A stretch of 64,000 nucleotides of DNA from Dillenia suffruticosa. Taxonomy: Eukaryota > Streptophyta > Magnoliopsida > Dilleniales > Dilleniaceae. Below are positions 18,610 through 61,920 of the stretch, piece after piece. Location: assembly GCA_033439265.1 (NCBI GenBank), contig JAVTVX010000031.1, forward strand, positions 11,951,501 to 12,015,500, given 5' to 3'. The position numbers and the translations under genes were made by a program. Numbering within the stretch: the first letter of the stretch is position 1; each line of letters starts with the position of its first letter. The notes under the pieces are model-generated. The model made no database searches. It was not told the DNA's origin and worked only from the letters and a program-made list of their open reading frames with translations.

Positions 18610-18876
18610 ATGGCTTCTAATTCTTTTTTGTCATCATCGTCATCTTCAAAGATATTGCAATTCGCATGTTATTTTATTTTGGTTCTCCTAATCCTCAATT
18701 TTGTGACAAGTTCTTGTGAGGCCGGTCAATTAAAAATATCAATGAAGTCGAATCATCAAAAACCTCATATAGGGACATGCAGTATTGGTTTTCAACACGA
18801 ACCACTGATATTGAACAGTTTGATAGCCCAAAGTTCGATGAAGGGCTCAGAGTCTCGCACGGCTGCGCAAGGTTAA
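18610..18876 (+). CDS. small secreted peptide precursor, copy 1 (SCOOP-like)
   Basis: 88 residues, single exon, intact. Ser-rich start (MASNSFLSSSSSSK), hydrophobic signal-peptide core at 15-33 (ILQFACYFILVLLILNF), probable cleavage near CEA-G at 36-39, a variable basic middle (KISMKSNHQKPH), and a conserved C-terminus GSESRTAAQG ending at the stop. Paralogues at 32117 and 61663 keep EAGxLxI, a GFQ or DFQ and the C-terminal GSxS[RS][ST]A[GA]QG. A signal peptide, variable middle and short conserved C-terminal end are the layout of plant signalling-peptide precursors processed outside the cell. The SxS core plus Gly-rich end recalls the SCOOP phytocytokines perceived by MIK2 in Arabidopsis. That likeness is my inference: SCOOPs were described from Brassicaceae and this may be an unrelated family. 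Closest gene upstream is the receptor-like protein 2 kb away. Confidence 0.7.
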   Translation: MASNSFLSSSSSSKILQFACYFILVLLILNFVTSSCEAGQLKISMKSNHQKPHIGTCSIGFQHEPLILNSLIAQSSMKGSESRTAAQG

Positions 18877-19435
18877 TCCTCGTATGCATATGGGATTTAG
18901 GGTTCAGAATTTAGATAATAACCCTGGAGATCTCGGATGGTAAAGCTTGACTTCTTGGTATTTATTTGTCATGTAACTGTATTCTCCATTTTTTTTTTTT
19001 TGAATTGTTACATTGGATTTTTTGATGTTATTTTCAGTAATTCTTTTTAATACCCTTATAAAGCAAATGATCAAATAAATATAATGTATATTTTCCGTTA
19101 GCACTGAGGATGCACAAAATGAGCTTGTTCTGCGGCATCAAACGAGATTGGACAAATTTAAGCCTATTGTTGATGGCTAGGACTCTCAATTGGGCCAGAC
19201 TGGATGTAGAATTCTTTACAAATATAATAGAATGGCATGGTAATATTTTGTTGATTCAAGGGAAGGCTCTTGTAGCGTATGCTTTTTTATTTCTAATACT
19301 TAAATTTGAAATTTTGATTAAAATATTTTAATGTTCTGTCATTGAAATCGTCCCACATTGGTGATAATATTTTGTTGATAACATACAAGATTGTCCTTTT
19401 ATACAAATAATGATAGTTCTTTCATTTTTTTGAGA

Positions 19436-19500
19436 AAATTATTTCTGTTTGTAAATGGTGAAACCTTCTGTTCGGTAATCTAATGAATCCGACTCATTCT
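19436..19500 (+). repeat. downstream block of copy 1, shared with copy 3
   Basis: GTGAAACCTTCTGTTCGGTA followed by ATCTAATGAATCCGACTCATTC corresponds to GGGAAAACTTCTGTTCTTCA plus ATCTAATGAATACGACTCATTC downstream of copy 3 at 32525-32570. In copy 3 this block is about 125 bp after the stop; here it is 560 bp away, so 18880-19430 contains extra sequence. Shows that the duplicated unit includes flanking non-coding DNA. Confidence 0.65.
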
Positions 19501-19508
19501 TTTTTGCA

Positions 19509-19733
19509 TGTTTTTTTTTTTTTTGTACCATGTCTTGGACACCGCCCGGTATCGGAGGCTTCGCCCCGACTAATCCGGACCGACCGCTGCAGTGGCTCCT
19601 GTTCGGAGGACGGGTCTCCCAACGGGGAACGCTCCATACACATGAGGGCCCGATGTTCCCGGTAGAAATCGAACCTCGGTCATGCTTAAAGGAACTCAAC
19701 TCCACATCCAGTTGAGCCAACCTCGGTCATGCT
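19509..19733 (-). mobile_element. tRNA-derived SINE, copy B (well preserved)
   Basis: Read on the minus strand: the head GAGGTTGGCTCAACTGGATG holds a clear A box (TGGCTCAACTGG). ATGACCGAGGTTCGATTTC holds a clear B box (GAGGTTCGATTTC). The body follows (GGGCCCTCATGTGTATGG, GCAGCGGTCGGTCCGG, GATACCGGGCGGTGTCC), then a poly(A) tail at about 19509-19524. Total about 220 bp. GC content is far above its surroundings and CpGs are intact, so it looks younger than copy A at 6854. It sits in the 3' flank of peptide gene copy 1, at the point where homology to copy 3 ends. No clear target duplication could be fixed. The open frames across it are by-products. Confidence 0.8.
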
Positions 19734-19807
19734 TAGGCTAGTGTTGGGGTGACACTTGTAATTACAATATAATTAGTTATAATATATTTTAAACAACTAT
19801 GGTCTAA

Positions 19808-19971
19808 ACTAAACCACGAGAGAGCTTCTTTATAATTTTTCCATCACTTTGAAGGCTGAGTTTTGCTTTGGTTTTACATTCTATTCAATTGTTGACAAGT
19901 TCAAATTCAGTACTCCTTAACTCTTTGCTCTATTCTTTTGACCTTCGAAGGTTTCACAAACAATTTTGCAT
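19808..19971 (+). repeat. upstream block U of the peptide-gene unit (copy 2 position)
   Basis: AAACCACGAGAGAGCTT, ACATTCTATTCAATTGTTGA and TTGACCTTCGAAGGTTTCAC recur in order at 31184-31535 and 37905-38100, in each case upstream of a peptide-gene promoter. This marks the start of a further duplicated unit. Confidence 0.6.
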
Positions 19972-20030
19972 TTTACCAAGCAAGTGGGTAACTTACATCA
20001 ACTTTTAAAAGAAAATATTGTTGATTTAAT

Positions 20031-20061
<31 letters not shown>

Positions 20062-20423
20062 AAATTTAATTTTTCCAAGTTACAAACATCCAAATTAGTT
20101 TACTTCTAATTGTACATAAGAAATTCAAACTAACAACAATAATAGTAATAATACTAGTAATAGAATATTATAATAATAATATAATTAGAGAAAGTTATAT
20201 TTTTAATTCCAAAACTATAAGATTAGCTCACAATTAGATTCATAAACTTTAAAATCTAATGATTAATTGCTTAAATTTTAAAAAATATAATGAGTTAATC
20301 TCTCCATTAATAACGAGATGCACTAGATATTAAAAGATATGTCATCTGACGTATAATGTCACTTGCTTATCTAGCATCATTGGACCAAAATGCTGACCTC
20401 GAATAGACCACGTCAGTTTGTCT

Positions 20424-20424
<1 letters not shown>

Positions 20425-20474
<50 letters not shown>

Positions 20475-20575
20475 ACTTCCTTCTAGACATGGCCTACAAT
20501 TCTCTCTCTCTCCCCCTCCCCTCTTCTTCTATTAAGCTATTGTCCTCCGTGCCAAACTCCCTCTTTATCTCTTAG
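20425..20575 (+). pseudogene. possible remnant of a peptide gene (copy 2)
   Basis: A long (CT)n tract (20427-20471) is followed 18 bp later by ATGGCCTACAATTCT, which matches the start of copies 1 and 3 (ATGGCTTCTAA(T/C)TC) at 12 of 15 bases. It lies at the expected distance after an upstream block U. The frame then gives 28 residues, Ser/Leu/Pro-rich, with no signal-peptide core and no C-terminal motif. The (CT)n tract itself produces Ser/Leu-rich frames, so this may be coincidence. There is no TATA box between the tract and the ATG. Confidence 0.3.
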
Positions 20576-21340
20576 TCTCTCAGTCTCTTGCTATCTCCAT
20601 CTCTTTCTCTAGATCCCATACCATTATCACTTAAATCTAACCGGAAAACTTTGAACCACCACCAAAAACCTCATTTGATGGTTGGAATCATGTTTTCCCT
20701 TCATTGCAACCATGCTTGAAGCTTCAATTCATGTTTTCTACTCCAAAAACTCATCAATTTCAAATCTTTGAATGACTCTTGCTTTCTCCATCATGAAACC
20801 CAATGTCTTCCACCACTGGTCAATGATTGAAACCCAAAACCTAGCTTAATCGGCTCATCTTTCTACAAAATGCCAATCAAGTTTCTTGTAGGTTCTTGTG
20901 TCATTCACCTTCGGTCATCTGTTAAAGTGCAAAATGGAAGATTGTTGAAGGTAGCATAAAACATTGATAATGATTGCGAAAACTGGTGGCAAAGTAAATG
21001 AAGAGATGATTCAAAACTTCAATCGCTGCCTCCTACTTTTCGATTTCTATAGTCACCATTTGAAATTTCTGTTGCAGTCGCCCTCGATTCCTGGATACAA
21101 TTCGTCATCTTTGCTCTTTAGTCATCGACGTCTTCATCTATAGCACCTTCAATCTCCACAATCACCGTTCAATATCATATTGCAGTTATATCCTCATGAG
21201 TTTCACCGGATAACATATTCCAATGTAATATATTCTAAAACATCTTCTCACATATCTAATATAGTATAATAAAAATCAATTAAATTTGAAAAAGAATATG
21301 GATTGAGAATCTAAAATCATATAAGTATTTTCGCAATCCT
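20576..21340. other. no gene seen; possible LTR-element interior
   Basis: Many stops in all frames. Text reads like a diverged retroelement leader (repeated CACCATT, TTCAATC words) leading to the tandem repeat and primer-site-like motif that follow. No assignable protein. Confidence 0.3.
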
Positions 21341-21640
21341 GAAGAGTAACTTTATCCAGGACAAATCAAGGGTCTTTTAGAGGTATGTGCGGATGCATAT
21401 TGAAGAGTAGCTTGTTTTAGAATAGACCACAAATATTCTAGAGGCACGTGTGTATACTGAAGAACAGTTTTTCCATTATGGATTAGATGTTTTTCAGAGG
21501 TGTGCACGATTACATATTAAAGAACAGTTTTTTTCAAAACAAATCAGAAGTTTTCTGGGTACGCGTATAGATACGAGAGCGGTTGTCTTTTTGAATCCTT
21601 TTTACAAAGGGAGCTCTTTGCAATTGGAGCTATGATACCA
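21341..21640 (-). repeat. 59-bp degenerate tandem repeat (4 copies) and primer-binding-site-like motif
   Basis: Four consecutive units of 57-61 bp share TGAAGA(G/A)(T/C)A(G/A)TTTTTCC... and ...TTTCTAGAGG(T/C)(A/G)(T/C)GTG(C/T)G (starts near 21341, 21400, 21459 and 21518). At 21627-21640 the minus strand reads TGGTATCATAGCTCC, the form of an initiator-Met tRNA primer site. That would put the LTR on its right (21641 onward) and this repeat in the leader of a minus-strand LTR element cut off by the gypsy remnant at 21790. The LTR partner is not visible. Confidence 0.4.
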
Positions 21641-21789
21641 CATTAAAAATATTTGAATATTATTTTGATATCTTGTTAGAAATAGAAGTAATATAATAAT
21701 AAAATTAATACTCCATTATCTTAATGAATTATTATAATAAATTGAATTTATATCGAAAATCCATTATAAAAAATATGAAAATATAATAA

Positions 21790-22958
21790 TAAGAAAAATG
21801 AAATATAGGGAGTTATTGGTGGGCTGGGATGAAGCGGGAGATCATAGAATTTGTGACTAAATGTTTGGTATGTCAGCAGGTGAAGGTCGAGTATCAACGA
21901 CCGGTTGGTCCATTGTAGCCATTTCCCATTCCTGAATGGAAGTGGGAACACATTCCATGGATTTTGTGACAGGCCTACCACGAATTTCAGCACGATATGA
22001 TACTATCTGGGTGATTGTTGATAAACTCACCAAGTCTGCTCATTTTGTCCCTATTCGTAGCGATTATTCTTTAAAGATTTTAGCCCGCCTTTACATTGAC
22101 ACGATAGTCAGACTCCATGGGATTTCGGTGTCGATAGTGTCAGACAAAGATTCCAGAATCACTTCTCAATTTTGGCCCAGGTTACTGGAGGTTTTGGGTA
22201 CTAAACTGAGTTTTAGCACAGTCTACCACCTGCAAACAGATGGTCAGTCAGAGAGGATCATCCAGACTCTAAAGGATATATTGAGCGCATGTGTTATGGA
22301 TTTTTGGGGTAGTTGGGATCGGCACCTTCTATTAGTGGAGTTTGCATACAATAACAATTATCATGCTAGTATTGGAATGCCACCATATGAGGTCTTGTAT
22401 GGGAGGAAATGTTGTACTCCGTTGTGCTGGGACGAGATAGGAAAGAGATGACTCACCAGTGTCGAGCTCGTTGAGGAGACTAAGGAGAAGGTGAGAATCA
22501 TCTGTACGCGGATGAAAGCCGCCCAAGATAGACAGAAAACCTAGGACAATTCAGGCAGCGGGGTAAGCTGAACCCTAGGTATATTGGTCCTTTTCGCATC
22601 TTGAAGAGGGTCGGAAATGTAGCATACAGACTAGATCTGCCAGATGAGCTTTCACGTATACAGAACGTCTTTCATGTCTCGGTACTCAAGAAATACCTAT
22701 CTGATCCTTCTCATATCCTAGAACCTCCGCCTATTGAGTTGTGTGAGGATTTGAGTCTTCCGATTCAGCCCGTGGCCATCCTTAATCGACAGATCAGGAA
22801 GCTAAGCAACAAAGAAGTTTCCCTGGTCTGAGTTTTGTAGAGGAGTGACCAAGTCGAGGAGCAGACTTGGGAACCGGAGCATACTATGAGGAGATAGTAT
22901 TCCGAGCTTTTCGATGTATAGTTTCGAGGATAAAGCTTTTTATTAGGAGGTTAGAAAT
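21790..22958 (+). pseudogene. gypsy (Tekay/Del-type) integrase and chromodomain remnant
   Basis: Plus-strand translation, with shifts, gives the C-terminal half of a gypsy polyprotein. First comes the end of the zinc-binding HHCC part (FVTKCLVCQQVK). Then the integrase core carries its three acidic residues in MDFVTGLP, IVSDKDSRITSQFW and [15 protein letters not shown]. Last comes a C-terminal region with NVFHVSVLKKYLSDPSH and PVAILNRQIRKL typical of Tekay/Del chromoviruses. The fragment starts abruptly at about 21790, so gag, protease, RT and RNase H are missing. A stop follows GKR near 22451, a frameshift lies around 22540 and another stop follows EVSLV at 22831. It resembles the fuller element at 52241-60788. 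Non-functional. Confidence 0.85.
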
Positions 22959-26245: not shown

Positions 26246-26252
26246 TAGTGCA

Positions 26253-26425
26253 AGAAAATGTGACATCATAAATCATTACAAGGTTTTGAATGGACCCATA
26301 TAGGGTCCAAAATGGTGCTAGATCCAAATCATCCAGCAAGAAGCGCAACAATTCCTATGAATTTTGGTTTTGTTTTATATTTTATTCTAAATGGTGGAAT
26401 CCTCAACCATCACATTACTCTATAA
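26253..26425 (+). repeat. downstream block D of a peptide-gene unit, displaced
   Basis: GCAAGAA..TGTGACATCATAAATC, then AAGG..TTTGAATGGACCCATATAGGG.CCAAAATGG and AGTGGAA(T)CCTC.(A)CCATCAC correspond in order to 32695-32905 downstream of peptide gene copy 3. It is likely the tail of unit 2, separated from its head (19808-20575) by the retroelement insertions between. Confidence 0.6.
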
Positions 26426-27118: not shown

Positions 27119-27525
27119 TGTTGCTGATATAATGCCTCCAATTCCGCCCATCTATCTTGCCTAGTCTTGCGTACTTGCTCAATCAATCCAAATTTGCTGC
27201 ATCATATAAATTACTTTTCGCTATTAGTTATAAGCAATATTCTCTTGCTATAACTAATGCTGGAGATGAGAGAAACATAGCACATATAAGGAAAGGAGAA
27301 AAAAATAAATGCTCTCAAAATTTTTTTCTTCGTGGGTTCTTGTGAGCAGTGGTTTGTGGGCATTGATAAGCATGCTTTTGTAATAGTTCTCTATAATAAA
27401 ATCCCTACATAGTCTTGGCCCGTGGTCGTAGATCATCCTGATAAAATATCAGATTGGTTTGTGGGCACATATTGGTTGTTGTTTGTTTTGTGTTAAACTG
27501 TGGAAATCGTTTCAATTCCTAACAA
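27119..27525 (+). mobile_element. 5' LTR of the copia element
   Basis: Starts TGTTGCTGATAT and ends TTCCTAACA(A). Matches 30147-30575 throughout, e.g. TTAGTTATAAGCAATATTCTC. Preceded by the target duplication TATAC (27114-27118). The primer site TGGTATCAAAGC follows at 27527-27538, complementary to initiator-Met tRNA. The two LTRs differ at many positions and by some 20 bp in length, so the insertion is not recent. Confidence 0.9.
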
Positions 27526-27550
27526 GTGGTATCAAAGCTACTTAATCTCA

Positions 27551-30146: not shown

Positions 30147-30575
30147 TGTTGCGGATATGGTGTCTCCAATTTCACCCATCTATCTTGCCAAGTCCTGCGT
30201 ACTTGCTCAATAATTCCAAATTTGCTGTATCATATCAATTACTTTTAGGTATTAGTTATAAGCAATATTCTCTTGATATAATTAATGCTGAAGATGAGAG
30301 AAATAGAGCACATAGACGGAAAGGAGACAAAAATAAATGCTCTCAAATTTTCCTTCTTCGTGGGTTCTTGTGAGCAATGGTTTGTGGGCATTGATAAGCA
30401 TACTCTTGTAATATTTCTCTATCACAAAATTCCTGCATAGTCTTGGCCCGTGGATGTAGATCATCCTGATTAAATATCAGTTTAGTCGAACCACGTAAAT
30501 TCTATGTTCTTATTTGCTTAATTGGTTATTTTTTGTCTTGTGTTAAGCTGTGGAAATCGATCCAATTCCTAACGG
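30147..30575 (+). mobile_element. 3' LTR of the copia element
   Basis: Starts TGTTGCGGATAT after a purine-rich AATCAAGGTGGAGAA tract, ends ...CAATTCCTAAC plus two bases, and is followed by TATAC (30576-30580), the same 5-bp word that precedes the 5' LTR. The whole element 27119-30575 (3457 bp) is therefore an intact insertion that lacks integrase. Confidence 0.9.
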
Positions 30576-31775: not shown

Positions 31776-32116
31776 GGGTCAACTAGGCCACCTCATTTTT
31801 TTAACACAAATTCCGGTTCTAACCGGCCAAACAGCGTCAACACCCATATCCGTGTCAACACCCATATCCGTGTCAACACCCGGTTGATCTTTGGATTCGA
31901 CACTAATATACCTTAAATGATACCTCAAATTTAAATTATATATATATATATATGATAAAAATATTTACAAAAAGAGTTTATAAAAATTTAATTCTAACTT
32001 AAATCAAATTTAATCGAATTTAATAAAATTATTATATATCAATAATTACTCTCTCTCTTCCTACCTAATATATATATAGGTGTATATCTCTAAACCCTCG
32101 TCAAATAAAACTAGAT
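31776..32116 (+). promoter_or_regulatory. promoter of peptide gene copy 3
   Basis: GGGTCAACTAGGCCACCTCATT with TTTTTTAACACAAATTCC corresponds to the W-box-like pair in copies 1, 4 and 5. Here the second element has lost its TTGAC (TTAAC). After an inserted (TA)n stretch come a short CT tract (32049-32058), ATATATATATAGG (32067-32079) and the leader CTCTAAACCCTCGTCAAATA, 41 bp before the ATG. A 20-bp tandem triplication CAACACCCATATCCGTGT lies at about 31838-31880. Confidence 0.6.
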
Positions 32117-32401
32117 ATGGCTTCTAACTCCTCCTCCTCCTCCTCCTCCTCCTCCTCTTCTTCTTCTTCTTCTCTAAACCCTCATCAAATAAAACTAGAT
32201 ATGGCTTCTAAGTCTTCTACTTCTTCTTCTTCTAAATTTGTGCAAAATTCTCGTGAGGTCGGTCAATTAAAAATATTATTGGAGCTGAATTATGCAAAAA
32301 CAAGCCATATTGATTTTCAGCATGGAGGAGTGGAATCAAACAAGGTGGTAATCCTATCTGCGGTGAAGGGCTCAAATTCTCGGAGTGCTGGGCAGGGTTG
32401 A
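32117..32401 (+). CDS. peptide precursor copy 3 without signal-peptide core
   Basis: 94 residues, open and intact, but altered. An 84-bp tandem duplication repeats the leader and start (CTCTAAACCCTC...ATGGCTTCTAA at 32088 and 32172), so the protein has two in-frame Mets 28 residues apart, separated by a Ser run from TCC/TCT repeats and by translated leader (LNPHQIKLD). Compared with copy 1, the 16 residues forming the signal-peptide hydrophobic core (copy 1 residues 15-30) are missing in frame: SSSSKFVQNSREVGQLKI here against SSSSK...FVTSSCEAGQLKI there. The C-terminus GSNSRSAGQG is the best-conserved of the family. So the putative active peptide is intact but should not enter the secretory pathway. 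Either a pseudogene in the making or a cytosolic form. Promoter elements are partly decayed as well. Confidence 0.55.
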   Translation: MASNSSSSSSSSSSSSSSSLNPHQIKLDMASKSSTSSSSKFVQNSREVGQLKILLELNYAKTSHIDFQHGGVESNKVVILSAVKGSNSRSAGQG

Positions 32402-32905: not shown

Positions 32906-32990
32906 GCTTTCACAAATCATCACCAGATTCACAAATCATTACCCACGGTGACAAACGGTTTGAAAACTATTGGTTATTGGATTTTGTGTG

Positions 32991-34746
32991 GCATTTTGGT
33001 AAGAGAAAGATAATGGGATAACTTCCATCATTAATTACCAATTAACCATCAAAATAGTAACTCCCCAATTAAGCCCAAAAGATGCCAAAGTGATTGGATT
33101 CTTCTCCTTCTTCCTCAATGGATTCTTGAAAAGAAAAAAAAAATGGTCCATTTTCTTCCTGCAAGAACAGTGACTATGAAGTAGGCTATGGCTAGGATTT
33201 TCCACAATTCTCTAGAGAGAGAAACACTGTGAGGGTCAGAGATTTTCGCGTAAAAAAATCTCTCATCGTCAAACGATTCACCGGACATGAGGTTTGAGGC
33301 GTCGTGGAATTACGGTGGTGGTTCGATGTGATCACCATCCGACCGTGCGATCCGTTCGGGAGATATCGTGACACGGTGGATTTTGGAGATCGCCCTGTAG
33401 AGGCATTTATCCCGAAAATTCCGAATTCCGAATCGATTTATTTTACGCTCGATCATCCTAACAGGTGTATCGAGAAGTCTTTGCTTGCAGGTGTACTCAC
33501 CGGTCGCACGACGCCCAATCTTGTATAAAAGTTCAGTAGGGTGATATGATAGATCGCATGAGTTGTGATCTTGTGATTGACGGAAGTGAAATGCCCTCAT
33601 ATGTAAGTGGGAGATATTGGTTATATATGCCCATTGTGGGGCATTTTGGTAAGAGGGAGATAATGGGGTAACTCCCATAATTAATTACCAATTAACCATC
33701 AAAATGGTAACTCCCCAATTAAGCCCAAACGATGCCAAAGTGATTGGATTCTTCTCCTTCTTCCTCAATGGATTCTTGAAAAGAAAAAAAAATGGTCCAT
33801 TTTCTTCCTGCGAGAACAGTGACTATGAAGTAGGCTATGGCTAGGGTTTTCCACAATTCTTTAGAGAGAGAAGCACTGTGAGGGTCGGAGATTTTCACGT
33901 AGGAAAATCTCCCATCGTCAAACGATTTACCGGATATGAGGCTTCAGGCGTCGTGGAATTGCGGTGGTGGTTCGATGTGATCACCATCCGACCGTGCGAT
34001 CCGTTCGGGGGATATCGTGACACGGTGGATTTTGGAGATCGCCCTTTAGAGGTATTTATCCCGAAAATTTCAAATTCCGAATCGATTCATTTTACGCTCG
34101 ATCATCCTAACAGGTGTATCGAGAAGTCTTTGTTTGCAGGTGTACTCGCCGATCGCACGACGCCCAATCTTGTATGAAAGTTCAGCAGGGTGATATGATA
34201 GATCGCATGAGTTGCGATCTTGTGATTGACGGAAGTGAAATGCCCTCATGTGCAAGTGGGAGATATTGGTTATATATGCCCATTGTGGGGCATTTTGGTA
34301 AGAGGGAGATAATGGGGTAACTCACATCATTAATTACCAATATACCATCAAAATGGTAACTCCCCAATTAAGCCCAAAAGATGCCAAAGTGATTGGATTC
34401 TTCTCCTTCTTCCTCAATGGATTCTTGAAAAGAAAAAAAAATGGTCCATTTTCTTCCTGCGAGAACAGTGACTATGAAGTAGGTTATGGCTAGGGCTTTC
34501 CACAATTCTTTAGAGAGAGAAACACTGTGAGGGTCAGAGATTTTCACGTAGAAAAATCTATTATCGTCAAATGATTCACCGGACATGAGGTTTGAGGCGT
34601 CGTGGAATTGCAGTGGTGGTTCGATGTGATCACCATCCGACCGTGCGATCCGTTCGGGAGATATCGCGACACGGTGGATTTTGGAGGTCGCCCTGTAGAG
34701 GTATTTATCCCGAAAATTCCGAATTTCGAATCGATTCATTTTACGC
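32991..34746 (-). repeat. 650-bp direct repeat, 2.7 copies, probably LTR-derived
   Basis: GCATTTTGGTAAGAG begins at 32991, 33641 and 34290, periods 650 and 649 bp. Units are about 95% alike; the third stops after 457 bp. Each unit contains AACTCCCCAATTAAGCCCAAA, CGTGGAATT.CGGTGGTGGTT, GACCGTGCGATCCGTTCGGG, TTGCAGGTGTACTC and GTGGGAGATATTGGTTATAT. Minus-strand wording (ACATGAGGGCATTTCACTTC after ATATCTCCCACTT) looks like a retrotransposon LTR or leader, hence the strand given, but I find no coding partner. Recurrent frames (e.g. 33304-33528, 33878-34177) come from the repeat itself. Copy 1 has extra decay; copies 2 and 3 are closest. Confidence 0.8.
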
Positions 34747-44790: not shown

Positions 44791-47700
44791 CTATTCCTCT
44801 TCATTGTCTTCTTCTTCTTCTTCTTGTTTGTCTTCGTCTTCTTCATCATCAGCTTCTTCTTCGCCTTCTTCTTCTTCTTCTTCTTCTTCTTCTTCTTCAT
44901 CTTCTTCTTCTTCTTGTTCTTCTTCTCCTTCAACATCTTCGATATCTGTTGACAAATGATACAAGATGTCTTCATTTTGTGGAAGTTCGTTAGTATTTAC
45001 CTCTTCCATATCACCGCCAAATAGAATCCTTGAATCATCAAGTTCGGGTGGACGATCTATGCCAACATTCATTGAGGGTTCATCTTCTTGATAAAAGCTT
45101 TCATTTATAATGGGAACCGTAACTCCATCATTAACAGACCCTCTAGCCTCTATTTTATAGGCAACCCACCACTTACTCCTCTCTCTCTTCTTAGAAGGGT
45201 AGCAACTATAGTACACTTGTTGTGCTTGTGTTGTCAAGACAAAAGGCTCATTATAATACAATCTTGATTTATGATTAACTTCAACAAGACCATGACAAGG
45301 GTGAACCTTGACTGCTTTTTCAGTATCATACCAAATGCACTTAAATAACACAAGTATATTACCAACTCCAAAGTACCTCAACTCTATGATCTTAACCAAC
45401 ATTCTATAGAAATCACGCTCAAAATCATTGTAACAACTTTCTTTCACACATACACCGCTATTCATTGTTGATTTCCATAAACCATAGTCGTATGTGTGAA
45501 ACTTGAAACCGTTAACGAAATATCTATTGTAACATTTTACTAAATGTGACGGCCCTTGTACAATATCCCTAACATTTTTTGATACGAAATTTCTTTCATC
45601 TGTTACCTATTAAAAAAATAAATAAATAGCATATAATTAGATAAAGTGACGATATACATAAGCTCTCAAATCACATTATACTTGGAATGAAAATGGCGTA
45701 CATACAAATTGCCTCAACCAACTTTTGAACTCCTGTTCCCGTCTTTTCTCTAGTTGCGCATCTGTGATGAAGGTATTTTCTTGTCTCACGACATCATCAA
45801 ACATCCTACTCACAACAAGGAAACATCATCTCATGACAGCTAAAATTTCAATAAACGTAACTACTAAACAGATATGAAGATACATATTCTATAAATTCAG
45901 TTAGCTTAATACAATTCAATAACACATATATAACAGCAGCCTTGTATTCTGATTCTGATAGATATCTAAGATGGCATTCCCTATATGCTCAACCTGAGAG
46001 AGAGAATATGGATAATCTTCCCATTGTTTGAAGACAACCCCCATCATCATTTCGAGGAACTCGATTAAACTTTGTTTCAATATGCAGTTCGAAATAGAAC
46101 GAGCAGAATGTGGAAATCTCCTCAATAATATAGTCCTCACATATGGATTCTTCAATGCGCGCTCGATTTCGGACTTTCTTCTTTAAACGAAACATACACC
46201 TAACATTAAAATAGCATTAATTAGAAAAGTGTCTTGAAATCATGTGAATTGATAAAAAGTTGTACACGGTACCTCTCAAATGGGTACATCCATTTGTATT
46301 GAACGGGTCCTCCAACCTTCGCTTCATATGCTGAATGAATAGATAAATGCTCCATACTATCGAAAAACGAAGGGGGGAATATTTTCTCAAGTTTGCACAT
46401 TGTCTCAACTATATTGCTCTCTAATAACTCCAAATGATTATCACGCAACTCAGTGCACATAAGTTATGAAAAAAAGTACTGAGTTCTGTTAATACATCCC
46501 AGACAGCATTAGGTACAAGGTCATGAAAGGCAATAGGGATCAATCTTTGCATGAAAAAGTGACAGTCATGACTCTTCATCCCATAAAATTTGCCTTCCTC
46601 CAAGCTAACACATCGCGTCAAGTTTGAAGCATAGCCATCAGGGAATTTCAATTTTTGCACCCATCGACATATATCAAATATTTGATCTTTTGTTAATATG
46701 TATGAAGCTTTGGGCTTCCAAGTCCTCCCATTACTTTCCTTCAATTCTAATTCTTGTCATTTGCAATATAACCCCAGATCCAGTCTTGCCTGATGCTGTT
46801 CTTCGTCTTTCCTTTCACATCCATAACATTCTCGAACATATTTTTTTCAATATGCATGACATCCAAGTTATGACAAATAAGAAGTATTCTCTAATAAGAT
46901 AACTCCTAGAAAATACTTTTTTTCACCCAGTTGTGTTCGATCCCAAACCCTTGAATAATTTGTTTACCGTATTTTGTGTCATATACAATATCTGGAAGAC
47001 AACATATTCGAGAAAACATCTCGTCCCCTAACAGTGTGCGAGGTGGCTCAACAATCTCAACTTTTCCTTTTCGAAACTTGTACCTTTGTTTCCGATAAGA
47101 ATGATCAAGAGGCAAAAATTGACAATGACAATAAAAAAATGTTGTCTTTCGACAATTCGCTAGCACAAACAATTTTGTGTGCTCCATGCAATAAGGACAA
47201 GCTAACTTTCCATGAGTGCTCCAGCTAGACAACATCGCATAAGCAGGAAAGTCGCTTATAGTCCATAAAAGATCTGCCCTCATACAGAAATTTTGCGATA
47301 TTGAAATATCATAGGTGTTCACACCTTCATCCTATAACATTTTCAATTCTTCAATTAAAGGTTTCAAGAAGATATCAATATGCTTTATCGGATTTCTTGG
47401 CCCTGGGATAATAAGACTTAGGAAAATGAATGGTTGCTTCATACACATAGAAGGAGGCAAACTAGACACAATTACAAAAACTGGCCAACAAGAGTATGGA
47501 ATGGTAGATTGACCGAATGGGTTAAAACCATCTATACATAGCCCTACGAGCACATTTCGAGATTTAAAGGCAAATGATGGATGAATAGAATTAAAATGCT
47601 TCCATGCTTCGCTATGGGCCAAGTGTGAAACAACTTCATCGTCATTACATTCATTTCTTGCATGCCATGTCATGTGTTCTGATGTACTTCTTGACATGTA

Positions 47701-52240: not shown

Positions 52241-53412
52241 TTTGTGAAATGAGATGTTTGAGAAATAAAGGGTGCTGGTAGTTAATGGTTATAGTCATTC
52301 CCAACACAGAGGACCCGACGGGGTGGCATGGTTGGGATTGGATGTGTAGGGGAGTTAGACGTCCCTCTCTCTGCCGAAGTCGTGCTATATCAGGTTTGCA
52401 CCCCGGTGAGGTATGAGCCAACGCCAATGAAGGGGGTATGTTTTGGAACATTGGATGGAAAAAAAAAAAGAAAAACCTTGGCGGGTTTTCATCTAGGTTC
52501 GGCTAGCCTAAGACGGGAGTGCTTTCGATGGGACCCCATGATTTTCTGATGGAATGATTAATGTGGATGCATGATTTGCAAATTGATCGAATTATTAAAA
52601 TGTGTTTACATATATAAAGTATGGTTATGAGATATGCTTTGACTGCCCCATATCACCTCTCATTTATGAACACAATCACACCATTGCACTCCACTTACTG
52701 AGTATTCTCCAATACTCACTCCTCTCTCTACATTTTTCAGAAAATACTTAGTTCGGAGACTGGACACTGGAGCTTGTGAAGGATTTTTGCTGATTTGTAT
52801 AGGTATCTAGCAAATGTAGAAATTTTTGGAAATTGTAGTTTATAGAACCATGGAAAGAAGTTCTGTACATCTCATACGATGTGGATTTTACTGATACTGG
52901 TTGAGTTATTCAGCAATTATTGGTAAAATCCAACGATTATGATTTAAAACTTCATTATTTTGATTTAACTGTTTGGACAAATGTTTTATTTTGTACTGGA
53001 ACATTTGGATTGAATTCTGAGTTTTGATATTTTCTTTTGGACTTGTGAAATTCTGTACATCTCATATCGCTTGGATTTTGCTAATGCTAGCTTGTTTTCT
53101 TCATGCAAGTATTAGTAAGATCCTGCGACTATGATTTGGAACTTCTTTTATTTTGAATACTTTATTTATACTGAGATTTCTGGAAAGGCTGGGATAGCTA
53201 TACTGCATACTTGTATGTATAGGGATGGACTAGATGGGTCCTTTGCATGTGTATTGTTTTTATGAATTTCTTATTTGATGGATTTGTATACTGGAAGATT
53301 TATTGTTCAGTAATGTAGCCTTGTGGGGTCCCGGTATATGGGGAGGCTCTGCCCGTGTACCGAGACAATGCAGCAGTTGTTGCCTGCTCGATTCGAGGAT
53401 CGGGATGTGACA
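52241..53412 (+). mobile_element. 5' LTR of a Tekay/Del-type gypsy element, start missing
   Basis: Aligns with 59834-60788 (GAGAAAT(A/G)AAGGGTGCTGGTAG, ATTCCC(A/C)ACAC.GAG, CTTACTGAGTATTC(T/C)CCAATAC, TTCTGTACATCTCATA twice) and ends GATGTGACA at 53412 as the other ends GACGTGACA. The first about 1.2 kb present in the 3' LTR (58607-59833) is absent, so the element is 5'-truncated at its junction with element B. Relative to the 3' LTR it retains about 220 bp around 52400-52610. Confidence 0.85.
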
Positions 53413-53418
53413 ACTTTA

Positions 53419-53430
53419 TTGGTATCAAAG
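53419..53430 (+). other. primer-binding site of the Tekay element
   Basis: TTGGTATCAAAG six bases after the LTR end; the initiator-Met tRNA type used by most plant LTR elements. Confidence 0.75.
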
Positions 53431-53704: not shown

Positions 53705-55095
53705 ATGAGGAATGTGAATGAGATTCCTCTACCAGAGTACGAGGATGAGTCGTCCTCGCATGCTCTCCCTCCTTCTGTATCTGCACACCCGGCTCCTTCT
53801 CCTGGGATTACTGCTCTTCCTATTGCCGCTCTTCAACAAGTAATGGAGTGGTGGAGTACCTTCGGAGTGTAGTATCAAGCTCCACAACCGTCTTCAGTCC
53901 CTCCACATGTTCCTCCTTCAGTGCCAGCTTCTACACCTAGTACTCTAGTAGCACCTCCTCCTCCGGTTGTTGCACCAATCAGCCGTTCCCTAGTTCAGTT
54001 GTCCAAACTAATCAAGGAAGCAAGGCAACTGGGATGTGAGACCTTCTCGGCATCTGGTGTCCTGTAGAGGCAAAGAAATGGATGAAGAATGTCAGAAAAG
54101 CTATAACGGATATGGGGATAGAGGATAGTTTGAAGCTCTTGATAGTTGTGAGATTGTTGGACGAAGATGCTAGCACATGGTGCGATGAAGTAGAGGAAAG
54201 GGCAATTGCACCTCTCAATTGGCACGATTTCCTTAGGGAATTCGACTAGAGATTCTACACCCGATTCAATCGGGACTTAAAGAGAAGAGAATTCCTTCAG
54301 CTTCGCCAAGGAAATCTGTCTGTGATAGAATATGAGGCGAAATTTAGAAGGCTATCCTCATTTGTACCAGAGCTAATCACCTCCAAAAAGTACAGACGCT
54401 TCAAGTTTGAGGATGGCTTGAATCTGAATATTCGAGAGAAGATGTCGGTCACGGATGAGCACACATACCAAAACGTGTTGCAATTGGCCTTGAGGGCCGA
54501 ACAGATGGTGCTTGAAAGGGGAAATGTTAGGGATCACCATGGGAAGAAGAGGTCCGGTGGATTTGTACCAGGCCAAAGCTCTAAGAAGAACAGAACTACA
54601 GGCTATCAAAGCGATGGATTTGTTTTGGGATCGGTTAGATTTCCTCAAAACCAACCAATTCATAGATCGAGTGTTCCTAGTACTGAGAATGTTGGATTAT
54701 GAGCTAAACCATGGGGAAGTGAAATGAGGACTTGCCCTAATTGTAAAGGGTATCACACGGGTCCGTGCAGAGGACCTAAGAGATGCTATCAGTATGGGAA
54801 GGAGGGACACCTCCGTTATTCTTGCCCTGAGTTGAAGGAAGAAGAGCAAGGTAGTCGTCAAGTCAGAGGTCCCTCTAGCGACTCCAAAACTGGTCTAGTT
54901 AGTTCGGCGACACATTCTACCAGTACTAACCCTAGGACGGGCATGGGAAGTAATGTTATAGCCACCTCCGCTCAGCGACCTCAATCTAGATCTCAAGCTA
55001 GAGTCTTTGCTATGACCAATGAAGAAGCCCAAGTTAATCCTGACGTAGTTACAGGTAATTTTCATTTAAATCTAAGTTCAAAATTTGAAATGTGA
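53705..55095 (+). pseudogene. Tekay gag, broken
   Basis: ATG at 53705 gives MRNVNEIPLPEYEDESSSHA and a Pro/Ser-rich N-terminus with a stop near 53871. After a shift comes the gag core: KKWMKNVRKAITDMGIEDSL, LLDEDASTWCDEVEERAIAP, NWHDFLREFD (stop at 54248), RFYTRFNRDLKRREFLQLRQ and MSVIEYEAKF-like text to 54702. After another shift a zinc knuckle CYQYGKEGHLRYSC (about 54784-54825) follows, in which the second Cys of the C-x2-C pair is Tyr. The CP..CKGYHTGPC motif before it is usual for this lineage. Frame ends at 55095. Confidence 0.85.
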
Positions 55096-55199
55096 TATCT
55101 ATGATTTAGAATTATGATTTGATGATTTGTGATTATGAATTAAGGAGTATGGTGATATAATTTTGTTTATGGTTTATATTTATAGGTATGATGAATATC

Positions 55200-58100
55200 T
55201 TTGGTGTTGATACTCATATACTCACAGATACCGGGTCGAATAATTCATTGTGAGTTCAGAATTTGAGAGACATTCTGATAGGCCATTAGTCCCACTTGAT
55301 GAAGAATTGTTGGTTATCACCCCCTTGGGAGAGCATTTGATTAGGGATTCAGTATGTAAGTCTTGTAAGGTGAAAGTTGGTGAGACAATCCTTGAAATGG
55401 ATTTGATTCTGTTGGATATAAAAGATTTTGACGCCATCCTAGGCATGGACTGGCTAAGCCTTCACTGAGCTTCAATGAACTGCTTCACTAAAGAAGTGGA
55501 ATTCAGTAGGTCAGGGCATCCCCTACTTGTGTTCGCTGGTGAACAGCGAGTATTGCCAAACTGTGTGATTTCAGCTCTTAAAGCACAGAAATTAATGTAT
55601 AAGGGTTGTGAAGCTTACTTAGCTCACATCATTGACACTACGGCGAAAAGCCCTGATCTGAACGATATCCCTTTGGTGAATGAGTTTCCGGATGTCTTTC
55701 CGGAAGAGTTCCTGGGTTACTACCGATCCGGGAGTTCGATTTCACTGTTGATCTTGTTCCTAGTATAACACCAATCTCTACTCCTCCTTATCGAATGGCA
55801 TCGGTAGAATTGAAAGAGTTGAAGGTCCAACTTCAAGAGTTGTTAGATAAGGGATTCATCCGACCGAGTAACTCACCTTGGGGTACTCCGGTTCTGTTTG
55901 TAAAAAAGAAAGATGACACGTTTCGGTTGTGTATCGATTATCGGCAATTAAATAAGGTAACCATCAAAAACAAATACCCCTTGCCAAGGATTGATGACTT
56001 GTTTGATCAACTCCAAGGGGTCAGTGTATTCTCTAAGATAGATTTGAGATCCGGTTATCACCAGTTGCGGATAAAGGAAGATGATGTCCCCAAGACTTCG
56101 TTTAGAACGCAATATAGGTATTATGAATTCTTGGTGATACCATTTGGTTTGACTAATACTCCAGCAGCTTTCATGGACCTTATGAATCGAGTTTTTCACT
56201 CCTATCTCGATAAGTTGGTCATTATTTTCATTGACGACATCCTTGTGTATTCCAAAAATGATGAAGAGCATTCAAATCATCTTTGGATTGTGCTACAAAC
56301 TCTCCAAGATAAGCAATTGTATGCTAACTTCTCAAAATGTGAATTCTGATTAAAGAAAATTGGCTTCTTGGGGCACATAGTATCGGGAGAAGGGATATTT
56401 ATCGATCAGAAGAAAGTTGACAATTCTGAAATGGGAACAACCTAAAAACGTCACCGAGGTGAGAAGTTTTCTCGGATTGGCAGGTTACTACTGAAGATTC
56501 GTAGAGGGTTTTTTCAAGATTGCAGCTCCGTTGTCTGGCTTAACACGGAAGGAAATCAAGTTTGAATGGACAGATAAATGTGAACAGAGTTTTCAAGAAC
56601 GCAAAAGGAGACTCACGTCAGCTCCCATACTCACTCTTCCTACCACCGGTGATGATTATGTTGTCCACAGCGATGCTAGTAAACAGGGGTTAGGATGCGT
56701 CTTGATGTAAGGCGACAGAGTTATCGCCTACGTTTCTCGACAGTTAAAGGAGCATGAGCTGAATTATCCTACCCATGATCTAGAATTTGCTGCTATTGTA
56801 TTTGCTTTAAAGATTTGGCGACATTACTTATACGGAGCCACTTGTAGAATCTTCACCGACCACAAGAGCCTCAAGTATTTGCTTACCTAGAAGGAGCTCA
56901 ATTTGAGACAAAGGAGATGGTTAGAGCTGATTAAAAACTATGATCTAGTGATTGATTATCATCCGGGTAAGGCGAACGTAGTTGCGGATGCTTTAAGCCG
57001 CAAGTCTTCATTTTCTTCTCTGATTCAGGGAGATTCTTACCTCTCATGTCTAATGGGACTTCGTGGTCTTGGAACTAAATTTGCTTGTGATGCGATGGTA
57101 TATTATTGACAAAATTCGAAATTCGACCAACATTGGTGGACTGTATTAAAGAACTCCAAACCACCGATGAAGAGTTAAAGGAGATAGTGAAAAAGATTCG
57201 CAAGGGTGAAAATAGTGATTTCCGTATTCAAGAGGATGGTATAGTCATGTATGGGGAAAGAATTTGTGTTCCAAAGAATGAGGATTTTCGAAAGGCCATA
57301 CTTGAAGAGGCACATTTTTCGGTCTATACTATGCATCCGGAGAGTACCAAGATATACTTACCATTAAGGAGTCATATTGGTGGTCTTGATTTAAGAGAGA
57401 GATCGCCGAATTTCTGGCGAGATGTCTAGTGTGCCAACAAGTCAAAGCTGAACACCAGAAGCCAGCCGGTGTCTTCCAACCACTGCCAATACCGGTATGG
57501 AAGTGGAAACATATTACTATGGATTTCGTTGTAGGATTTCCACGTACTCCAAGACGTCACGATGCCATTTGGGTGATTGTGGATCATCTCACGAAGTCAG
57601 CCTACTTCTTGCCGATTCAAACACATATTCTTTGGAAAGATTGGTTAAATTATATGTTGATGAGATCGTAAGACTTCACGGAGTTCCGGTATCCATTGTA
57701 TCAGACCGTAATTCTCGATTCACTTCTAGATTTTGGCCAAAGTTGCAAAAGTCCTTAGGGACTAAGCTGAAATTTAGTATTGCTTTCCATCCTCAGACCG
57801 ATGGGCAATCGGAACGTACAATCCAGACTATAGAGGACATGTTGAGGGCGTGTGTCTTGGATTTCCAGGGAAGTTAGGACCGACACCTTTCATTAATTGA
57901 ATTCGCCTATAATAACAACTATCAAACTAGCATAGGGATGCCGCCCTATGAAGCTCTTTATGGAAGGAAGTGCCGGACTCCATTGTGTTGGAACGAGGTT
58001 GGAGAGAGAAAAATTGAAAGTGTAGAATTTATCGAATCACTAAAGAAAAGGTGAAATTGATTCGGGAAAGAATGAAGATGGCTCAAGATCGCCAAAAGAG

Positions 58101-58558
58101 CTACGCCGATAAGAGGAGGAGACCCTTGGAGTTTGAAATAGGGGATAGGGTATTTTTGAAAGTCTCTCATTGGAAGGGAATAATTCGATTTCAGAAACGA
58201 GGAAAGTTAAACTCTCGATACATCGGTCTCTTCAAAATCCTTGAAAGGATTGGGCAAATGGCATATCGGCTAGAATTTTCGTCGGAGTTGCAAAGGATCC
58301 ATAATGTGTTTCACGTTTCAACGTTGAAAAAATATTTACCGGATCCTTCGCATGTATTGGAAGCTCCTCCGGTAGAGTTAAATGAAAATTTGAGTTTCAA
58401 GATACAACCGATGAAAATCATTGATCAACAGATCAAGCAGTTGAGGAGTAAACAAATCCCCATGGTTAAGGTATTATGGAGAAGTAATCAAGTGGAAGAG
58501 GAAACTTGGTAGATCGAAGAGTTGATGCAAAGACAGCACCCCCAACTTTTTAATGTGT
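55200..58558 (+). pseudogene. Tekay pol (protease, RT, RNase H, integrase, chromodomain), broken
   Basis: Protease near 55205 (LTDTGSNNSL, then a stop and shift; end at 55440 with DFDAILGMDWLS). Reverse transcriptase 55795-56500: [45 protein letters not shown] and the catalytic FIDDILVYS with both Asp present; a stop follows KCEF at 56347. RNase H 56640-57000 (VHSDASKQGLGCVLM then a stop, [37 protein letters not shown]). Integrase 57106-57980: zinc part ending [10 protein letters not shown]-like, core acids in [22 protein letters not shown] and [16 protein letters not shown]; a stop follows DFQGS at 57875. C-terminal part 58051-58512 with a chromodomain-like end (VKVLWRSNQVEEETW, stop at 58510). 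All domains are present in order, with at least seven stops or shifts. Dead but nearly full-length. Confidence 0.9.
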
Positions 58559-58606
58559 AATTTTCTTTTGAATTTTGAGAACGAAATTTCTTTTTCTGGG
58601 GTTAAG

Positions 58607-60788
58607 TGTTGTAGCACCAAGAACAAAAAAAAAGAAAAGAAAAAGAAAAGTTAACATTTTCACATTTCCAATAAACACTCTCTCTCTCTCTTCCCTCTCC
58701 CCTCACTTTCCCAATCACCCGAAATTTTTTTTTCTTTCTTTCTTCTCTTCTTCATATCACCCTTCTCTTGCTCTCGTATCTGTTTCTCTAATTCTCTCCA
58801 GCTTCCCGTCTCCCTCATCTCACTCTCTCGATTTTCTCTCTCTTTCTCTCTCCTGTACGCACGCGACAACCCTTTGCTTCTCTCCCTTTCTCACTCGTGC
58901 GTGCTACTTCTTGCGAGCACTACGCTTCTGCAACCTTCGCAAAAACCCCAAGCCGACAGTAGCAGTAGACCCTCAAAAACCCTAGGTCGCGATTCCTCCA
59001 CTGATGTCTTGAATTGGACATCCGAAATCCCCTAGGCCACGACTACGATTCTCTCTCTGCGCAAGTAAGGACCGGTTCCTAATCTTAACTCTAGGGTTTT
59101 GAATTTGCTTAGTAATTAGGTTTAATTGCTAAAAGGTACTTCAATTTGGAAGCGTTGTAGGTTCCGGACTGAATCAAACGGCGCACGAAAGTTAGGTCTA
59201 CGAGCTGCAAAATCCCTAGGTGAGGGAATTTCTAATCCTTTCAGTAGTTGAATGAGCTTAGGGCGAATATAAAAATGAGAGCTTTGTAGATGTTCTGAAA
59301 AATGTGCGGAATTTGAAAAGAGTGCACCTTCCTAAAAATTGATATGTAATTTCTAGGGTTACGTATAAATCCTATATGAATGTAGGTTGATTAATATGAA
59401 AAAAACGTGTTAGATGAAATTAGAAACTTGTTGGGTGGTATAGAACAGCTTTCCTTAGAGTTTGGTGTACGATTTAATGATTCATTTGTGATCAATGTCT
59501 TAAGTTAAGGCATTTGGAATTAAAGAAGGGGTAGGATTTTATTCGATTTGGAAATTGAGAGTGATTACCCTCCCAAAAGGTGAGTGGATGGTTTATTGTA
59601 TTCTTAAATGAGTAACTTGTTTAAAATTGCTTTATAAATAGTTTTGTAAGATTTTTACATATTTTATATAAATTATTTTGTGATTGTGGGATGTCTGAAC
59701 TAGATCGTAAAGTATGAATACATCCACCATGTTTATAAATGCATGTGTGCCATATTTTATTTGAAGTTGCTTTATGAATTGCTAAGGCAACAAATTTTTA
59801 ATTATTTGTTGGAAATTATGGCACATGATTTGTGAAATGAGGTGTTTGAGAAATGAAGGGTGCTGGTAGCTAATGGCTATAGTCATTCCCACCACGGAGC
59901 GACCTAACAGGGTGGTGTGGTTGGGATTGGATGTGCGGGGGAGTTAGACGTCCCTCCCTCTACCGAAGTCGTTAATACTTTTACATATATAAAGCGTGGT
60001 CATGAGATATACTTTGACTGCCCCACATTCACCTCTCATTTATGAATACAATTACACCATTGCACTCCACTTACTGAGTATTCCCCAATACTCACCCCTC
60101 TCTCTACATTTTTCAGAGAATATTTAGTTCGGAAACTGAACGTCGGAGCTTGCGAAGGATTTTTGCTGATTTGTATAGGTATCTAGCAAATGTAGAGAGT
60201 TTTGGGAATTATAGTTTATAGAACCATGGAAGGAAGTTCTGTACATCTCATACCGTGTGAATTTTACTGATACTGGTTGAGTTATTCAGTAAATATTGAT
60301 AAAATCGGACGATTATGATTTGAAACTTCATTATTTTGATTTAACTGTTTGGAAAAATGTTTTATCTTCTATTGAGACATTTGGATTGAGATTCTAAATT
60401 TTGATACTTTCTTTTGGAATTGTGAAGTTCTGTACATCTCATACCGTTTGGATTTTACTGATACTAGCTTGTTTTCTTCATGCAAGTATTAGTAAGATTC
60501 TGCGACTATGATTTGAGACTTTTTTTATTTTGAATGCTTTATTTGTCTGAGATTTCTAGAATGGCTGGAATAGCCACACTGCATGCTTGTGTGTACAGGG
60601 ATAGACTAGATGGATCCTTTGCATGTGTATTGTTTTTATGAATTTCTTACTTGATGGATTTGTGTACCGGAAGATTTATTGTTTAGTAATGTAATCTTGC
60701 GAGGTCCTGATATATGGGGAGATTCTACTCGTATATCGAGATAATGCGGCGGTTGTTACGTACTCGATCCGAGAATCAGGACGTGACA
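58607..60788 (+). mobile_element. 3' LTR of the Tekay element
   Basis: Starts TGTTGTAGCACCAAG after the coding end and ends ACGTGACA. 2182 bp. The first part has CT-rich text (58678-58860) whose open frame (58575-58985) is low-complexity, and CCCTAG...CCGATTCC-type words. From 59834 it aligns with the 5' LTR. A deletion of about 220 bp compared with that LTR lies near 59970. Divergence by eye around 10%, so the insertion is old. Confidence 0.85.
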
Positions 60789-61472
60789 GAGGGGATACTC
60801 AAAAGGCATGCTTGTTAGATTTAGGGACCATTAATTTAGATTCATTTAGGGTTGTGAAGGTACGCGGCTAGTTTCAAGAAGGGACAATGGTGTGATGTCA
60901 TACTCCCTTAAGACTTGATCCTAGCGCTGCGTGAGGATATAGGGTATTCTCATCTTGTAATACTATTCAAATAAAAATATTCCATCATTCTCATGAATAT
61001 TTATATTTATGAGATTACAAACACTCTAATTATATTATTATTTTTTATAAAATAAGATTATAGTGTGATAAGTATATTAAATGGTGATCAAAGGGTTATC
61101 ACCTCTATAAATATTAATATCGATGGCATACTCACAGATATTAAAAGAATTCCCATTCAAATGAACTTCGACTGAATATAGAGTTTGATTTTGAAACTAT
61201 TATTGTAGTTAGGCTTCTAAAACCGCCACTGATTCAAAACTTGGCCACAAAATTTATTCGAAGAATTTTTAAATTCAGGCTAATAGGAATTTGACTCATA
61301 GTTATGTCTAGTTTTGTGACATAAAATTATGAAAGATTGGTTGATTCTCCTCGCAACATATTACAGATTTTGCCCCCCCCCTAAGTATGCCTCATAAATG
61401 AGAAAATTCTAGTAACATTATTTGATTATAATTTTTATAAGAGTTTCTATTTTTTTTCAAACACTAATTGCT
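60789..61472. other. intergenic, no gene seen
   Basis: AT-rich, ends in the promoter of peptide gene copy 5. Contains a C8 run near 61373-61381. Nothing recognisable. Confidence 0.45.
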
Positions 61473-61540
61473 GGGTCAATTAGTGTCCACATTTTTTTAT
61501 TAACTCTTGACAAATTCCAATTGAATAAGTCATTCAACAC

Positions 61541-61593
<53 letters not shown>

Positions 61594-61662
61594 AAATAAC
61601 ATATATATATATATATATATTAGCATGCAATCTCTTAAATCCTCATGAGGCAAATGTCCAAC
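61473..61662 (+). promoter_or_regulatory. promoter of peptide gene copy 5
   Basis: GGGTCAATTAGTGTCCACAT (61473), CTCTTGACAAATTCCAATTG (about 61505), a (CT)n tract (61543-61587), ATATATATATATATATAT (61600-61620) and leader CTCTTAAATCCTCATG. Closest to copy 1 in the first block (GGTCAATTAGTGT in both). Confidence 0.65.
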
Positions 61663-61920
61663 ATGGCTTGTTCTTTTTCTTCATCTTCAAGATTATTGCA
61701 ACTTTGTTTTTACTTTGTTTATGTTTTTCTGCTCCTCAATTTTGCCACAAATTCCTGTGAAGCGGGTCGATTAGGAATTTTGATGAAGGACAACTATTCT
61801 GAGCCTTATACAAGAACAAACAATTCGGGATTTCAATTTTTTGGAGAACTGTGGTTCAACTGTTTGACGGCCCAAGTTTCAGTTAGCGGGTCAACTTCTT
61901 CGAGTGCAGGACAAGGTTAA
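61663..61920 (+). CDS. small secreted peptide precursor, copy 5 (SCOOP-like)
   Basis: Intact single-exon gene. I start at the ATG at 61663 (MACSFSSSSRLLQ, 85 residues) because it aligns with the start of copy 1; an in-frame ATG at 61645 would add MRQMSN. Signal-peptide core LLQLCFYFVYVFLLLNFA, cleavage probably near CEA-G (as in copy 1), then GRLGILMKDN, a GFQ-like middle, and the conserved end VSGSTSSSAGQG at the stop. Compared with copy 1 about 40% of residues agree, with the best agreement in the signal-to-EAGxLxI stretch and the last ten residues; the middle is free to vary. After the stop AAATTTGAAGTTCA resembles copy 3 (AAATTTAGAAGCTCA). It should enter the secretory pathway and be trimmed to a short C-terminal peptide; the receptor is unknown. 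Confidence 0.7.
   Translation: MACSFSSSSRLLQLCFYFVYVFLLLNFATNSCEAGRLGILMKDNYSEPYTRTNNSGFQFFGELWFNCLTAQVSVSGSTSSSAGQG

Follow-up and report, generated by a model that had tools for sequence, protein, structure and literature searches.

A tandem family of putative secreted prepropeptides in Dillenia suffruticosa, probably derived from an IDA-LIKE gene, with a conserved new C-terminal end

The precursors of the IDA and IDA-LIKE (IDL) family are described with a conserved Arg after the signal peptide (PMC4526919), and the PIP motif of IDA and IDL1 is given the consensus [PL][VI]PPS[AG]PSKRHN (PMC4627355). The PIP and PIP-LIKE (PIPL) peptides are characterized by an SGPS core and a C-terminal GxGH (PMC4526919). 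The SCOOP precursors, PROSCOOPs, are reported as restricted to Brassicales among 350 proteomes (PMC11331138); their large majority shows two coding exons, with the signal peptide on the first (PMC9784617), and RxLx/RxxL subtilase sites are described in most of them (PMC13157962). The poplar RISP shows four cysteines (PMC4756128). Here we describe a family of small genes, three copies of which (A, B and C) are located in a 64-kb window of the Dillenia suffruticosa genome (the whole stretch of DNA analyzed, contig C31, positions 11951501-12015500). Their predicted proteins end at the stop codon in a common sequence, and we conclude, from sequence comparison, that they probably represent a divergent IDA-LIKE offshoot in which the PIP motif has been replaced, and not SCOOPs.

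Copy A (18610..18876, forward strand) is a single open reading frame (ORF) of 88 amino acids with the C-terminus KGSESRTAAQG and homologues in its own genome, and copy C (61663..61920, forward strand) is a single ORF of 85 amino acids with the C-terminus SGSTSSSAGQG and a further in-frame ATG at 61645. Their putative signal peptide regions are found at 18610..18723 and 61663..61764, respectively (both forward), with a likely cut after SCEA, the site in A being one that we presume by the -3,-1 rule. The candidate peptides would be encoded by the last 11 codons, at 18841..18873 in A, on the basis of the residues invariant in the family, and at 61885..61917 in C, on the basis of the alignment of its members (both forward). 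Copy B (32117..32401, forward strand), of 94 amino acids and with the C-terminus KGSNSRSAGQG, is a damaged paralogue without signal peptide. Comparisons by tblastn gave E values of 1e-17 between A and C, 1e-9 to 8e-11 between A and B, and 3e-6 between C and B, and no fourth full copy was found with them in the 64-kb window. The pattern GS.S..A.QG at a stop codon was found in 3 of the 2087 stop-to-stop segments of at least 20 amino acids in the window, which are the three copies. A sequence-only reading of this DNA had proposed that the copies are real and homologous, with ends of this form, and these data bear it out. Its assignment of a signal peptide to two of the three was also correct by hydropathy: among the 80 window ORFs of at least 60 amino acids, the hydrophobic core of A (the top 15-mer) ranks first, that of C fourth and that of B 79th.

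The start of copy B is rearranged. A second copy of the 5' untranslated region (UTR) and start (32171-32217, forward strand) lies in tandem to 32087-32133, with a 93.6% match. Because the first ATG sits in this tandem 5' UTR copy, the residues SLNPHQIKLD correspond to translated 5' UTR, and the original start is probably the second ATG at 32201, which aligns with copy A, minus the hydrophobic core. The Ser-rich start that had been attributed to all three copies is, in B, partly a translated duplicate of the 5' UTR. No match reaching the cut-off was found in Pfam and NCBIfam for A, B or C, nor in Pfam for seven of their relatives. Solved-structure profile searches with profiles A2 and A3 gave nothing up to E=10, one scan each of viral and prokaryote collections with profile A2 gave no relative, and Rfam and tRNA scans gave nothing.

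The own genome (596 Mb, 37 contigs) was searched with copy A, which gave 13 places (E <=1e-3), with its relative L018a, which gave 13 (E <=0.01), and with the IDL gene L014, which gave 15 (E <=1); 12 of the 13 and 11 of the 15, respectively, are shared with the list of copy A. Since copy B is absent from all three lists, the family counts are lower bounds. The family far exceeds the window, with at least 10 core members that show the new end: A, B, C, L016, L018a and L018b on contig C31, and L009, L010a, L010b and L011 on contig C12. Six of the ten (A, C, L018a, L018b, L011 and L010b) are intact, with single ORFs of 78-88 amino acids. The core ends follow G-S-[T/E/N]-S-x-[S/T, once R]-A-[G, once A]-[Q/H]-G-stop, with the consensus S-V-x-G-S-T-S-x-[ST]-A-G-[QH]-G at the stop codon; none of the ten members, on either of the two contigs, deviates in G, S, S, A or the final G. 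Pro is absent from the last 11 residues of the core members, apart from one in each of L011 and L010a, and A, B and C also lack Tyr there. Copy C and L011, located on different contigs, are 76.7% identical over 591 nt, promoter included, and differ at a proportion of synonymous sites (pS) of 0.18-0.28. The phylogenetic tree places members from both contigs in the C type as well as in the L018 type. L009, not included in this tree, resembles the A/B type in the alignment. Two further relatives, L013 (C12) and L019 (C31), are reciprocal best matches, and the tree does not group them. As both types and the L013/L019 pair span both contigs, we infer that the gene array predates a segmental or whole-genome duplication.

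The ancestry of the family is indicated by genes of the same genome, since the same searches found the IDLs L014 and L015 on contig C24 and L032 on contig C26, which have the same precursor type and carry the IDA/IDL motif. L014 shows the IDA/IDL end LVPPSGPSKRHNS, with the motif LVPPSGPSKRHN, which fits the IDA/IDL1 consensus; L015 shows a similar signal peptide (MASLSSSSSKLWQISCYIFYLLLILNLVTSSCEAARLG...) and the end FNFFPKGNLVPPSGPSKWHNSVIDSSKP; and L032 shows VPPSGPARTHN. Their 28-residue tails match the extended PIP (EPIP) of AtIDA, whose letters were taken from PMC6971993, at 14, 14 and 13 positions in L014, L015 and L032, respectively, which no shuffle reached (0/20000 each). Copy A as query reaches both C24 IDLs (7.5e-7 and 4.6e-5), and L014 reaches core genes at 2.5e-6 to 0.036. 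At protein level, with composition correction off, hits on L014 or L015 at E <=5e-9 were obtained with seven of the eight core proteins given, and at 3e-20 with L013; much of this match falls in the signal peptide. L015 and family DNA align over 57-149 nt at 70-77% and, in the mature parts, L014 and L015 beat all 500 shuffles with a profile built on core plus intermediate sequences.

The intermediate ends are those of L013 and L019. L013 (FNYFPKGRVLSAGPVKGSDSPPASIA) retains two elements of the IDL end, FPKG and GP.K...S, and L019 (FNSLSTGTISGSKSPPSRIG) has lost FPKG and shows GSKS. The core KGSxS would occupy the position of the IDL K-R-H-N-S, and the match of individual residues is likewise putative. 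The PIP motif (Pro 2, 3 and 7, Ser 5 and the final HN) is absent in all ten core members. The residue after the signal peptide is Arg in C, L011, L010a and L010b, and other residues are found in A, B, L016, L018a and L018b. Two further IDL-type ORFs, L044 and L046, with FFPKGTLIPPSGPSKRHN and FFPKGTPLPPSGPSKRHN, respectively, and long tails, were observed on contig C10.

Across the six intact genes, the ratio of non-synonymous to synonymous differences per site (pN/pS) is 0.56 in the signal peptide, 0.77 in the middle and 0.49 in the last 11 codons, which is the usual prepropeptide pattern and is suggestive of a C-terminus more constrained than the middle.

W-boxes serve WRKY factors as binding sites in genes induced by stress. 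In the 400 bp upstream of nine of the core genes (all but L009), 24 W-boxes were found vs 4.4 expected, and none of 100000 resamplings of 1633 windows reached this number. Each of the nine core promoters contains at least one; L019 shows one, L013 none, and no W-box was found upstream of the IDLs L014 and L015, the two tested. Upstream of copy A they are located at 18462..18467 (reverse strand), in a block also found in C, L011 and L010a, at 18492..18497 (forward) and, near the TATA and start, at 18570..18575 (reverse). Upstream of copy C, one is located at 61474..61479 (reverse), in the block common to A and C. The shared promoters proposed from the sequence alone amount to this W-box block between A and C, and to the TATA and 5' UTR only between A and B. 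Control of the core genes by WRKY factors is perhaps indicated by these sites, and the enrichment makes the phytocytokine role of the sequence-only reading plausible. The small-precursor family that it had proposed, with predicted signal peptide and conserved C-terminus, is likewise supported by the members found in the own genome.

At the level of sequence, the proposal draws on IDL homology, loss of the PIP motif, a common new end, intact genes beside damaged copies, and promoters rich in W-boxes. We propose that a tandem family arose from an IDA-LIKE gene. Each intact gene would encode, in one exon, a prepropeptide that opens with a signal peptide (cleaved after about SCEA), continues with roughly 35-40 propeptide residues that change fast, and closes at the stop codon with a new C-terminal peptide in the place of the IDL sequence PKGxxVPPSGPSKRHNS. 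After secretion, apoplastic proteases would release a C-terminal ligand of about 10-13 amino acids. Perception by HAE/HSL is not expected because the motif that they recognise is gone, and a different leucine-rich-repeat (LRR) receptor may be involved. Expression would be stress-induced and WRKY-driven, and the function of phytocytokine type. The prepropeptide anatomy and its constraint, together with the PIP loss and the W-box promoters, favour such stress-induced secreted ligands with a non-HAE/HSL receptor; the immune role, receptor, processing and secretion of the core peptides stay putative. We assign to the whole proposal a probability of roughly 0.62.

Several results weigh against this proposal. 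Copy B matches no IDL, in addition to being missed by the genome searches. L032 is weaker than the other IDLs with the core-plus-intermediate profile (4/500 shuffles reach its score), and a core-only profile is weak on all three IDL mature parts, its score being reached by 9/500, 1/500 and 36/500 shuffles for L014, L015 and L032, respectively. Monophyly of the core obtains 82/93 with the motif columns and is not resolved without them. The W-box counts are inflated by shared ancestry, and when each subfamily is represented by a single promoter, that with the lowest count, P is 0.039. In the six intact genes, the difference between the end and the remaining mature sequence is reached by 64/1000 column permutations (Fisher 0.09); the ten-member test of the end gives 0.086, with signal-peptide windows more conserved (0.81 vs 0.77). 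In the A-C pair, change in the last 11 codons is not below that in the middle (0.68), the values for A-B and B-C being 0.07 and 0.047. Finally, no RxLx/RxxL motif was found in the propeptides of A, B and C.

It is possible, although unlikely, that the core genes are decaying IDL copies that lost the peptide motif after duplication and drift without function. Damage is seen in four of the ten core copies: the signal peptide is missing in B and L009 and broken in L010a, and L016 has lost its start. In the propeptide, A and B differ at 0.31 of non-synonymous and 0.19 of synonymous sites (0.12 by site counts, 0.019 by codon position), a relaxed or diversifying change. The damage also weighs against our proposal, and the A-B change against constraint. 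However, with all aligned codons counted, the proportions of differing sites between A and C are 0.52 (synonymous) and 0.33 (non-synonymous) (Fisher 0.004), and those between B and C are 0.61 and 0.42, respectively (Fisher 0.008). In simulations limited to substitutions, with 20-37% of the bases changed, an ORF remained open by chance in 1-6% of the runs. Against drift also stand the five invariant residues of the new end, on two contigs, and the W-boxes kept in the promoters. The A-C alignment shows gaps of 3, 9 and 3 nt in the coding sequence and also of 1, 2 and 5 nt in the flanks; the A-B alignment, rearranged in the start region, shows gaps there that are not multiples of three. Somewhat less probable is a function of the propeptide as a whole or of its N-terminal part, such as an apoplastic antimicrobial or host-defence peptide like poplar RISP, whose mature form is described as acting directly on rust (PMC4756128), the C-terminus being no ligand. 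Nine of the 14 invariant mature positions of the six intact genes (I, K, N, P, F, L, L, A and S) do lie outside the end; however, pN/pS is highest in the middle, A and C have one cysteine each beyond the cut, with no pattern common to both, and AlphaFold on copy A (three-sequence alignment; mean predicted local distance difference test score of 52.5) shows one helix at 14-44, that of the signal peptide, and no other fold.

The sequence-only reading had suggested perhaps a SCOOP-like family, and copies A, B and C were compared with SCOOP12 (PVRSSQSSQAGGR) and SCOOP10#2. In all ten core members, the C-terminal 13-mer has the two Ser of SxS at positions 5 and 7, as in SCOOP12; copy C is identical to it at 6 of 13 positions, which beyond SxS are V2, S8, A10 and G11; among 191 window ORF C-termini, the three copies match it best. 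However, the BLOSUM62 scores of A, B and C to SCOOP12 (10, 18 and 19) lie within chance, an unrelated 13-mer among 11000 of the window ORFs scoring 33. Against shuffles, B and C are only nominally better (0.02-0.03), A is not (0.12), and with SCOOP10#2 none of the three is. Furthermore, signal peptide and end motif share one ORF in A and C, so that the two-exon structure is absent, the subtilase sites of most PROSCOOPs are lacking in the propeptides of A, B and C, and the PROSCOOPs described are of Brassicales (PMC11331138). As the SCOOP12 likeness is within chance and same-genome genes with a similar precursor bear the IDA/IDL motif, SCOOP kinship was rejected, and true PROSCOOP members perceived by MIK2 are a very improbable explanation. 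Even less credible is that the shared end is an artefact of a splice donor (CAR-G|GTTRA), the protein continuing in another exon: CAR-G|GT is present in the three window copies, but L009 reads GGC TAA without GT, the stop codons vary between TAA and TGA, and the pyrimidine-rich acceptors within 700 nt yield no exon common to the three copies. This origin was accordingly discarded.

If the family is IDL-derived as proposed, a peptide-hormone family may have been caught changing its ligand, with IDL ends, two intermediates and the new end in one genome, the promoters being rich in defence-type W-boxes. Among the open-access papers listed, none was found that describes IDLs with this end, subscription journals being mostly outside that scope. 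A 2025 review points out that the expansion of the MIK2 clade in species without SCOOPs raises the question of other ligands, exogenous or endogenous (PMC12507258), and speaks of less similar orthologues, in contrast to the report of no MIK2 homologue outside Brassicales (PMC11331138). The core peptides would be concrete candidates for such ligands in SCOOP-less species. It is a tentative idea, and a rather improbable one, that an abscission-type IDL ligand turned into an immune peptide in a lineage without SCOOPs, its SxS end converging on them and its receptor being of the MIK2 clade or another LRR protein.

With regard to the surroundings, a truncated relative, L045 (63931-64000, reverse strand), shows a signal peptide followed by CDATRLG (MAASKLLQGSFYFVYLMLACNPVTHFCDATRLGELIKTNIHAQ) and runs off the right window edge. 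An intronless gene at 15119-16522 (forward strand) encodes an LRR protein of 467 amino acids with a hydrophobic C-terminal tail, which we take to be PII-2/RLP29-like. Its residues 28-394 align in one stretch with TOO MANY MOUTHS, and some LRR kinases, aligned in several stretches, reach higher scores. At E <=1e-60, its only other genome match is 42% identical, on contig C19 (91 of 1405 candidates scored), and no relative was found in the fetched stretches around other family clusters; for these reasons, a ligand/receptor linkage like that of poplar RISP was discarded and not used as an argument. Between A and B, paired long terminal repeat (LTR)-like repeats at 27119-27523 and 30147-30573 (83%) resemble those of a copia-type element (weak gag_2, RVT_2). 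Between B and C, paired repeats at 52241-53412 and 59829-60788 (88.6-88.9%) resemble the LTRs of a gypsy-type element, with reverse transcriptase and Tf2-1-like SH3 ORFs between them; the distance from the right repeat to the start of copy C is under 1 kb. A 649-base repeat in three tandem copies (32968-34746, about 93% alike) starts about 570 bases downstream of B. The window also contains an ORF of 236 amino acids with a DUF761 C-terminus (5083-5793, reverse strand) and a DUF4216 ORF (44791-45465, reverse strand) with other small same-strand ORFs nearby, perhaps remains of a CACTA-type transposon.

Compared with known systems, the family resembles poplar RISP, located beside an LRR receptor-like protein gene, as a small, presumably secreted orphan protein with an LRR gene 2.1 kb from copy A, and differs from it in the number of cysteines (four vs one after the cut in A and C). 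With PIP/PIPL and CEP it would share secreted precursors with a C-terminal ligand, and with PIP/PIPL it also shares the lack of introns, whereas the SGPS core and GxGH are absent in all ten core ends. SCOOPs are similar in the predicted signal peptide, the Ser/Gly-rich end, the SxS spacing and the tandem genes amid transposon debris, and unlike in having two exons instead of one and in being reported from Brassicales only; the core motif, furthermore, is exactly C-terminal, and an SxS end by itself does not make a SCOOP. In relation to IDA/IDL, the core genes lack the PIP motif and show G-S-x-S-x-x-A-G-Q-G at the stop codon, with no IDL tail. Nevertheless, they are likewise small, single-exon by ORF, and provided with a predicted signal peptide and a putative C-terminal ligand region, and they have in common with the IDLs of the same genome the signal peptide, the RLG-type start and part of the propeptide.

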